From Phycisphaerales bacterium (GTDB taxonomy: Bacteria > Planctomycetota > Phycisphaerae > Phycisphaerales > UBA1924), in contig JALHNK010000004.1 of assembly GCA_022843565.1 (NCBI GenBank), forward strand, positions 1 to 51,712: a DNA stretch of 51,712 bases. Direction: 5' to 3'. Positions 46,612 to 51,712 of the stretch are shown here, piece by piece; position 1 is the stretch's first letter; each line of letters opens with the position of its first letter. Position numbers and translations under genes: made by a program. The notes beneath the pieces are model-generated. The model saw nothing but the letters and a program-made list of their open reading frames with translations, did no database searches and was not told the DNA's origin.

Positions 46612-47079
46612 TCACGCCGCCCGCTTATCCCAGCCCGGTGCCCGCACGTTTGACGGGGCGGTCGGTGCTTCAGTCCAGTCCTCGGCCGAGCGGACCCGCA
46701 GTTCGCTGGGCATGGTCTTGCGATAGCCCAGGAGGCGTACGACTTCGAGCACGTCGGTCCACTGCGGGAAGGTCTTGTTGTTCTCGCGTTTGAAAGCGTC
46801 GATCGCCATGACGAAGAGGAACTGCTCGCGGTTGAGTTCGCCCTCTTCGGCGCCGCGTGTGAAGTCGCTGAGGCGGCGGCCGACGCCGCGACGCCGATCG
46901 AGGCCGAGCGTGCCGGCCTTGGCGTCGGCGGCGCTGTCGATCTCTTGCTCGAAGGCGCGCCGATCGATGCCCGACCGACGATCGATGACGCTCTTGGTGA
47001 GATCGGCCAGCTCGCGCAGGGCCTCATCGCTGAGGTGCTCCGGCGTGGCCTTGGGCTGATGGTTCGGACGCTTGCTCAT
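46612..47079 (-). CDS. small charged protein with RRSGxDRR motif, unknown function
   Basis: 155 residues, with no signal or membrane helix. Two related basic blocks are evident: IDRRSGIDRRAFEQEIDS and LGLDRRRGVGRRLSDFTRG, about 30 residues apart. They are followed by EEGELNREQFLFVMAIDAFKREN and FPQWTDVLEVVRLLGYRK, which look like a compact helical domain. I recall similar proteins only in planctomycetes, without a known role; nucleic-acid binding is possible given the Arg pairs. ATG 47079; the stop faces metG, with two heptamer arrays in the gap. Confidence 0.75.
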   Translation of the reverse strand: MSKRPNHQPKATPEHLSDEALRELADLTKSVIDRRSGIDRRAFEQEIDSAADAKAGTLGLDRRRGVGRRLSDFTRGAEEGELNREQFLFVMAIDAFKRENNKTFPQWTDVLEVVRLLGYRKTMPSELRVRSAEDWTEAPTAPSNVRAPGWDKRAA

Positions 47080-47166
47080 GGCGCGCTCGCAGCAAAGGGG
47101 GTGGAACATCGGGCGGACGCCGCCCGAAAACCCTCCCCGCGCAAAGCGTCAGCGCCCGCGCGGGGA

Positions 47167-47484
47167 TCAGATGTCCTCGTCACCCTCTTCATCGTCGAAC
47201 TCGTCGTCGAACTCGTCGTCTTCATCGGCATCGCCGTCGAAGCCCTCTTCCTCGTCCTCAAACTCGTCATCTTCCTCATCACCCTCAAACTCGGCACCAC
47301 CCTCGCCCTCCTCGGCGTCGTCTTCAAACTCGTCTTCCTCGAAGTCGTCGCCGCCGAAGTCGCTGCCCTCTTCTCCGTCCTTGCGCTTGGCATCGCTCAG
47401 CGGGTGCGCAAAGGGGAACGCCGGGTTCGGCAGCAGCGTCGTCGTTCGCTCGTCGGTCGTCAGCGTGTCGTCCAGGATCAGCAT
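47167..47484 (-). CDS. small highly acidic protein, unknown function
   Basis: 105 residues. The first 40 residues (LILDDTLTTDERTTTLLPNPAFPFAHPLSDAKRK) are ordinary; the rest is a run of Asp, Glu, Phe and Gly (EEDEFEDDAEEGEG, DDEFDDEFDDEEG) with almost no basic residue. The tail is probably disordered and could bind metal ions or basic proteins. The codons of the tail are mostly GAC and GAG/GAA, giving a repetitive TCGTC/CTC pattern on the plus strand, but the reading frame is intact. ATG 47484. It is 88 bp downstream of the previous small gene in the same direction. Confidence 0.7.
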   Translation of the reverse strand: MLILDDTLTTDERTTTLLPNPAFPFAHPLSDAKRKDGEEGSDFGGDDFEEDEFEDDAEEGEGGAEFEGDEEDDEFEDEEEGFDGDADEDDEFDDEFDDEEGDEDI

Positions 47485-47862
47485 GGCTCGCCTCGGTCGA
47501 AGGATCTCGCTCGACGCCGCGCTCCCGGGAAGAACCGTTCCTCCCGACCACCCGCGCGACGCCAGAAGCACGCGCCCATCTCGCGACGCGTGCGCCCAAC
47601 CGTACCCACGCCGATGCACCAGTCAACACCCGTCGCATTCTTCGCGCACCGCCCATCGCGCCACCGGCCGGGCTCAGGTCACCGCCTTCGAGCCACCGAC
47701 CTGTCCTCGGGTCGGTGCCCGAAGTCATCGATCGCGTATCACGCTCTGTCTGGCACCAACGGCCGGGTCTTCTTCAGCACGCCACAGCCACTGACCATCC
47801 GCCGCCGCGCGCTTCGTGATCAACCCTCGCTCCGTCCCGCGCTCCGGGTACGATCACCACCC
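47485..47862. other. divergent region between the acidic protein and a membrane-protein pair
   Basis: 378 bases without a recognisable gene. An 8-bp inverted repeat CACCGACC (47694-47701) / GGTCGGTG (47710-47717) is present. Promoters for both sides must lie here but none stands out. Confidence 0.5.
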
Positions 47863-48474
47863 ATGCCTGACTCCTCTGACAACTCCGACCGCTGGCAGCC
47901 CGTCGCCGCGGCTTTGGCATTCCTCCTGCCCGGCGCAGGCCACGCGTATCTCGGGCACACCGCACGCGGGGCGTGCGTATTGGTCGGCGTTGGCGGCCTC
48001 TTCGGCGGCGGTCTGTTCATCGCTGGGCTTGACGCAGTGGACTCCCAGCTCTTCGTCCAAAACCTCGCACGCTCGGCCATCTCCCGCGTCACAGGCACGC
48101 CGGCCAAGCCCGAGATCGTCGCCGATGGCGACTCGATCTGGTTTCTCGGCACCATGTTCGTCGGCCCCGCGGCGTTCATCGTCGACAACATCCACCAGTA
48201 CCACTTCAAAGTCCGCGAGCCCAATGGCGTCCTCCGATCCGCCCGCCCGGGCGAGGGGCGCGGGCCAAATGGCGAACTTTTGCCCATCACCACCGACAGC
48301 CGCGGCGTCCGCACCCTGGGCGGCACGCCGCCGAATCGGCGAGCCCTCGCCCGCATCGGCGAGATCGGCACGCTCTACTGCACGATCGCCGGCATCCTGA
48401 ACCTCATCGCGATCATCGATGTCGCCTACTCGCGCCGGCGCCAGCCCGCCGCGCCCGCCGGGAGCAACCCATGA
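47863..48474 (+). CDS. membrane protein of planctomycete type (DUF6677-like)
   Basis: 203 residues. QPVAAALAFLLPGAGHAYLG is a short hydrophobic start with the GAGHxYLG motif shared with TM2-type membrane proteins; ACVLVGVGGLFGGGLFIAGLD is a helix, IWFLGTMFVGPAAFIVDNIHQYHF another, and TLYCTIAGILNLIAIIDV the last. The middle loop carries a polar segment (about 125-165). The family name is from memory of planctomycete proteins with this pattern. ATG 47863; the stop overlaps the next start by 4 bases (ATGA). Confidence 0.72.
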   Translation: MPDSSDNSDRWQPVAAALAFLLPGAGHAYLGHTARGACVLVGVGGLFGGGLFIAGLDAVDSQLFVQNLARSAISRVTGTPAKPEIVADGDSIWFLGTMFVGPAAFIVDNIHQYHFKVREPNGVLRSARPGEGRGPNGELLPITTDSRGVRTLGGTPPNRRALARIGEIGTLYCTIAGILNLIAIIDVAYSRRRQPAAPAGSNP

Positions 48475-48865: not shown

Positions 48866-49960
48866 TCAGCCGATCGTCCGCATCACGCTCACCGCGGCGT
48901 ACACACCCGCCACCTCTTCTCGCGCCAGCGTCATCGGTCTGAACTTCGGGTTCAGCGGCTGCAATCGCACCCGCTCCGCCCGCGGCGAGCCGGGCTCGGC
49001 GGTTTCTTCGTCGATCGCCCGCCCGTCAGCGGTCTCAAAGAACACGCGCTTGAACGTGGTCTGGTGATCCGGCTCGACGCGTACGAAGCAGTCTTGCCCG
49101 CTGCGCACCGGCTTGCTCGGTGAGAAGATCACCAGATCGCCCTCGCGATACTCCGGCAGCATCGACTCGCCGACGACGCGGGCCGCGAACGCATCGGGAT
49201 CGCGAATGTCGGGGCTCCGCACGTATTCATCGGCGACGCGCGCGGGGTACCCGAGATCCGAGAAATCGCCGGGGTAGCCCGCAGCGACCGAGTTGATCAG
49301 CGGCACCTCGACCGGCAGCGCCAGCGAAGCCAGCACGCCATCGCGCTCGATGGCCCCACCGTCATGGCGTGAGCCGGTACCGGTCGGCTGGCCGACATCG
49401 CCCGCACCCCCCCCGCGCCGCGCCGCGTGTCCAGAAATCATCGCACCCGCCTCGGGGTCAATGCGAGCGATCAGTTTCGCCAGCCGGCCGGATCGAAACG
49501 CTTCATCCAGCGAGCCCACGCCGCGCAGCGCGCCAAGCTCGCGAGCGACGGCGGTCGCGGCCTCGATCCGCTCGCCATCGCGTCGCACTTCGCCCGGTGC
49601 GTTCTCCCAATGCGCCGCCCGCACGAGCACGCCACGCGTGATTCCCAGCGCGTCCTCGAGGCGAATGAGGATCTCGCGAGAGACGCCGCCGCCACGCCGC
49701 ACTTCGTTCTCAAGCATCGAGAGGTGGCTCTTGGCGCAGCCGACAAGGGCCGCGAGCTGCGCGAGTGTCAGCCCGCGTTGACGCCGCGACTGTCGCACGA
49801 TGTGCGCGAGTGTCGAGCGTTCAGGGTGCTGGCCGTCCGCGTCGCGCGCACCGCCGGCGCGAGCCTCGGGCGCTGCGTGCGCGGCGTGAGTTTCTGGCGC
49901 GTCACGACAGCTTTGCGCGCGATCTTTTGCACTTTTGGATTCGGGGCCTTGCCAAACCAT
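48866..49960 (-). CDS. XRE-type HTH / S24 LexA-CI-like self-cleaving repressor
   Basis: 364 residues. About 50 disordered N-terminal residues precede an XRE helix-turn-helix (RRQRGLTLAQLAALVGCAKS). A variable middle of about 100 residues is followed by the S24 peptidase fold: cleavage site A227-G228 in NSVAAGYPGDF, catalytic S266 in VVGESMLPEYREGDLVIF and general-base K304 in TTFKRVFF. Distances of 38 residues (site to Ser) and 38 (Ser to Lys) match LexA and lambda CI, so RecA-stimulated self-cleavage after DNA damage is expected. ATG 49960 has no ribosome site, and a -10-like box ends only nine bases before it, which would give a nearly leaderless mRNA as for lambda cI. GTG 49801 (RQSRRQRGLTL) is an alternative. 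Divergent from the operon at 50034. Confidence 0.87.
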   Translation of the reverse strand: MVWQGPESKSAKDRAQSCRDAPETHAAHAAPEARAGGARDADGQHPERSTLAHIVRQSRRQRGLTLAQLAALVGCAKSHLSMLENEVRRGGGVSREILIRLEDALGITRGVLVRAAHWENAPGEVRRDGERIEAATAVARELGALRGVGSLDEAFRSGRLAKLIARIDPEAGAMISGHAARRGGGAGDVGQPTGTGSRHDGGAIERDGVLASLALPVEVPLINSVAAGYPGDFSDLGYPARVADEYVRSPDIRDPDAFAARVVGESMLPEYREGDLVIFSPSKPVRSGQDCFVRVEPDHQTTFKRVFFETADGRAIDEETAEPGSPRAERVRLQPLNPKFRPMTLAREEVAGVYAAVSVMRTIG

Positions 49961-49976
49961 ACCCAAACAGTATCAA
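49949..49976 (+). promoter_or_regulatory. predicted rightward promoter for the HTH-ATPase-GNAT operon
   Basis: TTGCCA (49949-49954) and TATCAA (49971-49976) with 16 bases between; 5/6 and 4/6 matches to the standard boxes. The expected start of transcription, near 49983, lies inside the palindromic operator. Confidence 0.5.
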
Positions 49977-49995
49977 ATAGGAAGTTCACAGTCAA
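49967..49995 (-). promoter_or_regulatory. predicted leftward promoter for the repressor gene
   Basis: On the minus strand TTGACT (49995-49990), then 15 bases to GATACT (49974-49969) or 17 to TACTGT. The -35 box is exactly the 6-bp centre of the operator, so repressor binding should shut off its own gene or modulate it. Confidence 0.45.
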
Positions 49996-50003
49996 GTGAA
50001 CTT
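49982..50003. promoter_or_regulatory. palindromic operator of the S24 repressor
   Basis: AAGTTCAC (49982-49989), six bases AGTCAA, GTGAACTT (49996-50003): a perfect 8-bp inverted repeat in a local AT-rich patch between divergent genes, one of which encodes a CI-like repressor. Binding is inferred from position. Confidence 0.7.
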
Positions 50004-50033
50004 TTCAGGGCGAACACCGATCAGGAGCCGATC

Positions 50034-50525
50034 ATGACCTATGAACCGATCGAGATCCGAGACTTTGACGCCGCGGGGGCGGCCGCGCGAACCGAACGGC
50101 GCGAGGCCTCGCAGACGATGGCGGAGCTTGTGCTGCAACGGGCCGAGGTGCTCGACGAGCACGACCGGGCGTTGCTCCAGGCGATCTACGCCGAGGGCAA
50201 GAGCTGCGCGTTCGTGGCTCGGCTTTCGAACGTGCCGGCCCATCAGGTGCAGCGGCGCGTCCGCGAGCTGGCGAAGCGGGTGACCTCGCCGCAGTTCGCG
50301 TTCGTCCTTCGCCAGCGGGCACACTGGAACCCGACGATGGCCCGCGTCGCCACCGAGGTCTTCCTGCGTGGGCGCTCGCTCAAGGGCGCTCAGAACGCGC
50401 TGAAGTTCACCTATCACAGCGTGCGCCGCCAGCGCGACGCGGTTTTGGCCATGTTCGCGGCTGAGACCTCCAAAGCCGCGGCCAACCGCATCCCCCAAAG
50501 CACCCACAGCCGGAGCGCCCGATGA
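50034..50525 (+). CDS. small HTH protein, first gene of the switch operon
   Basis: 163 residues. LDEHDRALLQAIYAEGKSCAFVARLSNVPAHQVQRRVRELAKRV (residues of about 40-85) reads as a sigma-region-4-like or resolvase-like helix-turn-helix. A second helical block with Arg and His follows (RQRAHWNPTMARVATEVFLRGRSL, FTYHSVRRQRDAVLAMF). I do not recognise the family. The first helix resembles regulators that start a phage or mobile-element operon. ATG 50034 has AGGAG at 50023-50027; its stop overlaps the ATPase start by 4 bases. Confidence 0.75.
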   Translation: MTYEPIEIRDFDAAGAAARTERREASQTMAELVLQRAEVLDEHDRALLQAIYAEGKSCAFVARLSNVPAHQVQRRVRELAKRVTSPQFAFVLRQRAHWNPTMARVATEVFLRGRSLKGAQNALKFTYHSVRRQRDAVLAMFAAETSKAAANRIPQSTHSRSAR

Positions 50526-51238
50526 CCCGGCGCCTCATCGATGCCTCCATCGCCCTGGGCTTGCCTCTGGGATCGCTCGCAAAGCTCCCGGCCCTCGACG
50601 CTCGCCAGCTCGCGCTGCACGAGTCCATCGCCCGCGACATCGCGGCGCTCGCCGCGTCGCAATCGCCCTCGGTCATCCTGATCACCGGCGCATCGGGCAC
50701 CGGAAAGTCCACGTTGCTCCGGCGGTTGCGCCGAGAGCTGCGTGATCGTGGCGTGCGGTGCGTGTCGCCCAGAGATGTCTCGCAGCGCTCTGCGACCACG
50801 CGCGTGATTGACCTCTCGCCCAGAACATCGCCAGCGCTCTGGCTTCGCCAGCTTGGCGATGCGGGGCTCGCCGAGGCGAGGCTTCTGAATCGCCTGCCGC
50901 GTGACCTGTCCGAGGGCCAACGAGCACGACTGTCGCTGGCGATCGGCTTGGCATCGACGCGTCGCGATCGCCGCTTGCGTGCGCTGCTCGCCGATGAGTT
51001 CCTGGCGCTGCTGGATCGAGCGACCGCGATGTCGTGCGCCGCATCGATCGCCCGGGCCGTCCGGCGCGATGCGGACAGGCCCCGCTCGCTGATCGCCTGC
51101 ACATCGCACGACGACCTCGCGGGCGCGCTGTGCCCGGACATGCACGTTCACCTTCACCCGCACCGGCCGCCAGCCGTTCACACGCGTGCCACGGCTGCAC
51201 CTGATCAGACAACACCGCAAGCCGGAGAAGCCCCATGA
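50522..51238 (+). CDS. soluble ABC-type ATPase (COG2401-like, without acetyltransferase half)
   Basis: 238 residues. GASGTGKSTLL (about 56-66) is Walker A, LSEGQRARLSLA (about 131-142) the ABC signature with Glu for the second Gly, LRALLADEFLALLD (about 157-170) Walker B with the catalytic acidic pair, and ACTSHDD the H-switch. There is no membrane segment and no permease gene, so it is not a transporter. The Q-loop region is short. The compact form recalls the ATPase half of COG2401 proteins, in which an ABC-type ATPase is fused to a predicted acetyltransferase. The C-terminal 45 residues are low-complexity. ATG overlaps on both sides (4 bases each). Confidence 0.8.
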   Translation: MTRRLIDASIALGLPLGSLAKLPALDARQLALHESIARDIAALAASQSPSVILITGASGTGKSTLLRRLRRELRDRGVRCVSPRDVSQRSATTRVIDLSPRTSPALWLRQLGDAGLAEARLLNRLPRDLSEGQRARLSLAIGLASTRRDRRLRALLADEFLALLDRATAMSCAASIARAVRRDADRPRSLIACTSHDDLAGALCPDMHVHLHPHRPPAVHTRATAAPDQTTPQAGEAP

Positions 51239-51712
51239 TCCGTTGCTCATTGCTCACTGGATTCGACATCGCCCCCGGCACGCGGGCCGACGCTCAATCG
51301 CTCGCCCCGTCACACTATCGCGCCGGGCCGCCGGCGACGATCGAGCTGGTGCTGGCGGCGCGAACGCGGGCGACACGAGAGCTCGCGGGCGTGCTCGTCA
51401 TCAGTCGCCCGGTGCTGAACGCCTCGTGGCGTGCGGTCGCCTGGCCCGAACACTTCGGCTCGCAATCGACCTTCTCGCTGATGCCGATGGCGGAGCGGGC
51501 GCGCATCGTCAACCAGCTCGTTCGGTGCATCTCGCGTGTGATCATCGATCAGCGACATCGGGGCATCGGGCTCTCGACGGCGCTCGTCCGCGCGTACGTG
51601 CGCGAGCCGCTCACGCCGCTGACCGAGGGGATCGCCGCCATGGGCGGCGCGTGCCCGTTCTTTGAAGCCGCGGGGATGCGGCGCGTGCCCCGCCCGCCGG
51701 CGCGCCGCGAAC
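51235..51712 (+). CDS. GNAT-like acyltransferase, C-terminus beyond window
   Basis: 159 codons are visible, without a stop. TIELVLAARTRATRELAGVLVIS is the N-terminal strand pair; ISRVIIDQRHRGIGLSTALVRAYV is GNAT motif A with R-x2-G-x-G for acetyl-CoA; IAAMGGACPFFEAAGMRRV is motif B, where the last visible residues are. The start ATG 51235 overlaps the ATPase stop by 4 bases, the strongest hint that both act together. The order (ATPase, then GNAT) is the reverse or split equivalent of the COG2401 fusion as I recall it. Substrate unknown. Confidence 0.78.
   Translation, partial: MIRCSLLTGFDIAPGTRADAQSLAPSHYRAGPPATIELVLAARTRATRELAGVLVISRPVLNASWRAVAWPEHFGSQSTFSLMPMAERARIVNQLVRCISRVIIDQRHRGIGLSTALVRAYVREPLTPLTEGIAAMGGACPFFEAAGMRRVPRPPARRE

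Follow-up and report, generated by a model that had tools for sequence, protein, structure and literature searches.

The 51,712-bp stretch of Phycisphaerales DNA analysed here (the window) is the complete contig C4 of genome G000, and its right end carries a phage-style switch with an operon that breaks off inside a gene. A repressor gene on the reverse strand (48866..49960) is divergent from three forward-strand genes, which encode a small helix-turn-helix (HTH) protein resembling sigma region 4 (HTH1, 50034..50525), an ATP-binding cassette (ABC) ATPase (50522..51238) and a GNAT-fold acyltransferase whose first 159 codons (51235..51712) reach the contig end. Successive genes overlap by the four bases ATGA at 50522-50525 (HTH1/ABC) and 51235-51238 (ABC/GNAT). 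An earlier, sequence-only reading of the window had described this layout, which is confirmed here; the TTG at 49966 that it took as the repressor start has an ATG alternative at 49960. The sequence to the right of the window, which that reading had asked for, was obtained as contig C66 of the same genome. The start of C66 overlaps the window end by 145 bp (51568..51712) with 2 mismatches, the GNAT reading frame runs on across the join to a gene end at L087:450, and the following gene (L087:607-2487, 626 aa) encodes a phage terminase large subunit (TerL; phrog_2, E=1.7e-16), located by searching G000 with the large WANRGGGKT protein that relatives encode after GNAT. With TerL behind GNAT, the set thus comprises four genes rather than three. 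In a genome of the same genus (G001), all these genes lie on a single contig.

The repressor, a homologue of lambda CI, combines an HTH_3 domain (PF01381) with a Peptidase_S24 domain (PF00717) and is predicted to cleave itself. The Ala-Gly cleavage site, the serine and the lysine are all present in the window protein, and among the relatives having these alignment columns the Ala-Gly site is kept in 37-38 of 38, the serine in 37 of 38 and the lysine in 37 of 38. The protein therefore has the HTH, the Ala-Gly site and the Ser-Lys dyad of an S24/LexA-CI repressor, for which cleavage would be RecA-dependent. The control by DNA damage proposed in the sequence-only reading is plausible, given such an autocleavable repressor of phage type. 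Between the divergent starts of the repressor and HTH1 lies the palindrome AAGTTCAC-N6-GTGAACTT, with a putative operator at its core (49984..50001, GTTCACAGTCAAGTGAAC). The exact core, GTTCAC-N6-GTGAAC, occurs once only in the whole of genome G000, where an exact match of the core thus reveals no second operon with the same operator; similar palindromes stand at the equivalent place in G001, G011, G013, G023, G047 and G059. Twelve relatives also share a second motif, ATACCAAACA, between the repressor and HTH1 genes (window region 49940-49990), which may be another binding site.

The ABC protein carries all ATPase motifs (Walker A GASGTGKST, LSEGQ, LLADEF and the H-loop). No permease gene was found in the operon of any relative examined, as the sequence-only reading had noted for the window, and the protein does not qualify as part of an ABC transporter. 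The GNAT protein of the window is weakly recognisable by sequence (Pfam E=0.03; phrog_886 E=1.6e-8), but its fold is firm in the AF2 model of a homologue (pLDDT 94). Structures nearest to this model include the phage Mu protein Mom (8bv8, rank 4, Z 12.0 over 162 residues), which is tied with unrelated N-acetyltransferases, and the window protein itself matches the Mom-type family phrog_1384 weakly (E=0.24). The fold matches of the model indicate no specific substrate.

The relatives of both proteins in viruses became visible with family profiles. As single queries, the window GNAT found no relatives in viral contigs and the window ABC had no match in phages, and the window GNAT is 27–29% identical to phage proteins. 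Profiles of the bacterial families matched the ABC proteins of the phages SSU5, nickie and a Rhizobium phage at 1e-55 to 1e-59, and reached phage GNAT proteins at 1e-12 to 1e-21, TerL at 1e-27 to 1e-29 and ParB at 1e-8 to 1e-9. Among 80 viral contigs found by their ABC gene alone and surveyed over at most 6 kb on each side of it, 78 encode GNAT, 67 TerL and 63 ParB, and 16 have ABC and GNAT fused. The phage gene order, taken from Salmonella SSU5, Pseudomonas nickie and phages of Rhizobium, Klebsiella and Stenotrophomonas (mostly ~110 kb), is ParB, a second ParB-like protein, ABC, small genes, GNAT, a small gene, a DNA-binding protein, TerL, portal and capsid. SSU5, nickie, RHEph10 and BUCTxx99, which are phages or phage-plasmids of ~110 kb, share the order of ParB, ABC, GNAT, DNA-binding protein and TerL, and their ABC, GNAT, TerL and ParB are homologous to the planctomycete ones. 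They differ from the locus studied here in that the element is a virus, portal and capsid come right after TerL, and no S24 repressor and HTH1 pair adjoins. By its gene context, the ABC-GNAT pair is a feature of phage DNA packaging, and we infer a role in packaging for both proteins. The joint neighbourhood search in planctomycetes and phages that the sequence-only reading had suggested thus found the pair strongly conserved as neighbours, and the phage ancestry that it had proposed is upheld by the homology of the parts to phage packaging genes.

The same two domains make up COG2401, in which an ABC ATPase of the MK0520 type and a predicted acetyltransferase form one protein, and one phage homologue is annotated as an MK0520 protein. 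The window differs in having two separate genes, and in a setting of DNA packaging. In named bacterial genomes, the ABC-GNAT loci of 69 relatives from the class include 27 with fused and 42 with separate genes, which bears out the view of the window pair as a two-gene version of COG2401. No paper with COG2401 was found in the literature library searched. The steady association with phage DNA packaging, and with its initiation, gives this orphan enzyme pair a setting, and both ABC and GNAT become testable in tractable phages such as SSU5.

The sequence-only reading had also offered a self-contained stress or defence module. In the form weighed here, ABC and GNAT would themselves modify a macromolecule, for example DNA as Mu Mom does, with TerL secondary. 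The GNAT model is well folded and has a DNA-modifying enzyme among its nearest structures, yet the tie of Mom with unrelated N-acetyltransferases takes away from this likeness, and PADLOC returned generic ATPase matches only for ABC and none for GNAT. The gene next to the pair is a terminase, phages too keep the pair close to TerL, and TerL is the most widely retained member of the module; we consider a defence role of the pair itself very improbable.

TerL was found in 50 of the 61 genomes of the order, nearly always at one place. Among 50 modules examined, HTH1 (whose homologues match phrog_11138, best E=2e-12) was present in 44, ABC in 46, GNAT in 46 and the repressor in 40, part of the gaps being due to contig ends; fused relatives had contaminated the ABC and GNAT profiles of this survey, which were made anew before the fused and separate loci reported above were counted. 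Across the class Phycisphaerae, 136 of 248 genomes gave a TerL match, which was weak and partial in about 12 of them. A phylum-wide sample gave strong TerL matches only in this class, and named records with TerL are Phycisphaerae or unclassified planctomycetes, bar one or two odd labels. The module set, HTH-ABC-GNAT-(ParB-TerS)-TerL, in which TerS is the terminase small subunit, is single-copy. With 19 host families mapped on it, a tree of 86 TerL proteins requires 18 changes, which no tree could undercut, and within one genus the ratio of nonsynonymous to synonymous substitution rates (dN/dS) is 0.02–0.43 for every module gene, a sign of purifying selection. The Walker A and B residues K, T, D and E and the nuclease residues D434 and D488 are invariant in 86 of 86 proteins, D604 in all 85 that have that column, and four cysteines in 86 of 86. 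The protein therefore has the ATPase motifs and the RNase-H-like acidic residues expected of a phage terminase large subunit. By these measures, the module is vertically inherited across one planctomycete class and kept intact.

The tree, the dN/dS values and the invariant catalytic residues together exclude, for the whole class, that the module is a prophage of recent arrival or in decay. That the gene set is the left end of an ordinary prophage, integrated or decaying, was the other proposal of the sequence-only reading; it would account for the phage-type repressor beside packaging genes and for one genome, G068, in which head genes lie directly downstream. Against it, TerL follows the host family tree and is single-copy, class-wide and syntenic, all genes are under purifying selection with catalytic residues kept, and dispersed parts are retained. 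An integrase, a patchy distribution and contiguous virion genes, the marks of an ordinary prophage, are wanting apart from the contiguous head genes of G068, and we regard this origin as highly unlikely.

Between families, the module varies in the part that would select the DNA to be packaged. In families f3 to f6, ParB and a gene of ~150 aa lie upstream of TerL, and homologues of the latter elsewhere in the class match the terminase small subunit (phrog_2538, E down to 1.4e-7). In the family of the window, f1, full-length ParB is absent from 34 of 34 modules and TerS from 29 of 34, some of which lie on short contigs; TerL, ABC, GNAT and the repressor stay intact while ParB, its N-terminal part gone, and TerS have eroded. 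TerL stands alone in families f20 and f24 and in part of f23. When 21 genomes, including controls with a compact module, were searched with the GNAT profile, 19 proved to have GNAT, mostly with ABC and HTH1 and often with ParB. In the dispersed cases, HTH1-ABC-GNAT lies 14–44 kb from TerL or on another contig, and the DNA between TerL and GNAT holds mostly ordinary genes, with ParB and a TerS-like gene among them in G243.

Head genes accompany the module in two families. In G099, the stretch between TerL and HTH1-ABC-GNAT encodes a portal of SPP1 type (PF05133, E=6e-14), a scaffold-like protein and a major capsid protein of SU10 type (PF17236, E=1e-80), and the same cluster is present in G106, G093, G086 and G280, all five genomes belonging to family f20. 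Capsid and portal have dN/dS of 0.07–0.18 in the genus of G099. In G068, which belongs to another family, portal and capsid genes come immediately after HTH1-ABC-GNAT-TerL, and the capsid is 60% identical to that of G099. A third case is G090, a single-contig genome of family f1, in which a homologous portal gene, truncated next to an integrase gene, is located at a distance of 58 kb from TerL. The gene abutting the truncated portal encodes a tyrosine recombinase, and relaxase- and coupling-protein-like genes lie beyond it (L462:486-2755, L461, L460); the portal gene was apparently interrupted by the insertion of an integrative element. In uncultivated phages from IMG/VR (L476-L480, L483 and L484), TerL, matching the class profile at E 1e-43 to 1e-64, lies 3–7 kb before an SU10-type capsid that is 34–38% identical to the f20 capsid. 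These are phage-like contigs, and differ from the bacterial loci in that ABC-GNAT was not seen within the stretch covered. Since this type of TerL and this type of capsid occur close together in phages, both gene sets can be tied to one kind of ancestor.

One prophage family is common in the class (L088, L089 and L090 in G039, G021 and G055), its portal being present in 66 of the 248 genomes with up to 6 copies per genome. This portal was rejected as a partner of the module because it is multi-copy, patchy and also present in genomes without the module, and was assigned to ordinary prophages. The portal of IMG/VR phages with a similar full-length TerL was tried as the cognate portal and occurs in only 1 of the 248 genomes. 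The abundance of prophages would suit a helper-dependent, satellite-like module whose TerL would fill the heads of infecting or resident phages with host DNA and could interfere with these phages, as would a packaging part that is complete with no heads nearby in most genomes. However, the module is inherited vertically, with no mobility or integrase, and 22 of the 66 portal-bearing genomes lack it. The fit between TerL and portal is usually specific, and we judge a satellite improbable.

Since the head genes come from other genomes than that of the window, the main rival explanation is a domesticated terminase that acts without a particle, TerL being a DNA-damage-induced motor-nuclease that is loaded by ABC-GNAT and cuts, trims or clears cellular DNA. 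Such a repurposing would agree with the retention of TerL, ABC, GNAT and the repressor in family f1, where ParB and TerS eroded, with the lack of head genes near the module in that family, with the broken portal of G090 and with the near absence of the cognate phage portal. In contrast, head genes under purifying selection accompany the module in f20, head genes are found also in G068, and a portal homologue persists in G090. We consider the repurposed terminase unlikely, if still worth serious attention.

Gene transfer agents (GTAs) are built from tailed-phage proteins, are fully endogenised, often at multiple loci, and are mostly inherited vertically in co-diversification with their hosts; they form particles, package mostly random host DNA and never the whole of their own genome, and deliver this DNA to other cells (PMC9662315). 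The first three of these properties can be read from sequence and are found in the class. TerL and a TerS-like protein derive from tailed phages, as do the portal, scaffold and SU10 capsid that some families have; in f20, f23 and f24 the genes for packaging, TerL and heads occupy separate chromosomal sites; and inheritance is vertical by the TerL tree. As for particles, head genes share a genome with the module in f20 and G068, and G090 has the interrupted portal. On the strength of the first three properties, we take a GTA-like element as the best explanation, and think it reasonably probable that the locus is a dispersed, DNA-damage-switched element of this kind derived from an ancient endogenised tailed-phage gene set. 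The window itself probably holds the packaging-initiation, or front, part of a virus-derived DNA-packaging machine that would load the cell's own DNA into virus-like particles.

Several observations weigh against a GTA. The evidence consists of genes rather than of particles, packaged DNA or transfer. The head genes come from f20, G068 and G090, and were seen in two families only, besides G090, where the portal is interrupted, its other half was not found in the stretches covered and no capsid turned up in ~240 kb around TerL. Most complete genomes that carry the module lack the HK97-type capsid PF05065 and portal PF04860, for which reason a GTA was first doubted, until the SU10- and SPP1-type head genes turned up in G099. 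No tail or lysis genes were identified, a PHROGs scan of the late genes of G068 giving no tail assignment, and G068 could be an intact prophage.

For a GTA-like element, we propose the following sequence of events. DNA damage would activate RecA, upon which the repressor would cleave itself and leave the operator, allowing expression of the HTH1-ABC-GNAT-TerL operon. The ABC ATPase and GNAT may then prepare or mark an initiation complex, whereupon TerL would cut chromosomal DNA and pump it into a head. In family f1, where the ParB N-terminal part and mostly TerS are lost, initiation would depend less on a specific site, as it does in known GTAs. The bolder proposal, to which we give about equal measures of confidence and doubt, is a new GTA family, apparently the first in Planctomycetota, which is spread over Phycisphaerae, multi-locus and switched by DNA damage, has a dedicated ABC-acyltransferase pair, and in f1 has discarded its site-recognition subunits so that any chromosomal DNA could be loaded. 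Like the viriforms RcGTA, BaGTA and BhGTA (PMC9662315), it would comprise tailed-phage packaging and head genes over several loci, inherited vertically with no integrase, and, in f1, would have lost the site-recognition part of packaging initiation. Unlike them, it belongs to another host phylum and another phage ancestor, with an SU10-type capsid and an SPP1-type portal, has an S24 self-cleaving repressor and the ABC-GNAT pair, and is known from its genes. Our literature search found no report of GTAs or solitary terminases in Phycisphaerae, nor of a GTA in Planctomycetota; a survey of TerL mentions only a prophage of another planctomycete (PMC7947584).

The surroundings of the element appear to be chromosomal. 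The sequence-only reading had held two things against itself, ordinary housekeeping genes downstream and a pair not conserved as neighbours; genes that read as ordinary chromosomal ones do follow on C66, but only after TerL, and the second did not hold. The names of flanking genes (LptF/G-like, GH57-like, RpiB, DUF488, Der) were read from translations only. An RpiB-like gene adjoins TerL in G118, G077 and G271 (L283, L284 and L303; two families), and DUF488-like genes lie within the module in G203 and G262. On the left, a small membrane-protein gene (47887..48474, forward strand) serves as a synteny marker outside the element, its homologue adjoining the module in 25 of 50 relatives. Farther out is a pair of small reverse-strand genes (46612-47109 and 47167-47619), one encoding a hyperacidic protein with long Asp/Glu runs, and G007 (L036:12630-13358) and G025 (L040:4051-4808) have a similar pair close to the module. 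On C66, a small gene and the PIN-like gene after it (L087:17190-17844) resemble a toxin-antitoxin pair.

If the element is a GTA, a further phylum would possess such agents, derived from an independent phage ancestor and carried by bacteria that are known largely from assembled genomes, and the DNA-damage switch would provide a testable trigger. If no particle exists, a viral packaging motor would have been kept by cells for another purpose, which would be equally surprising.

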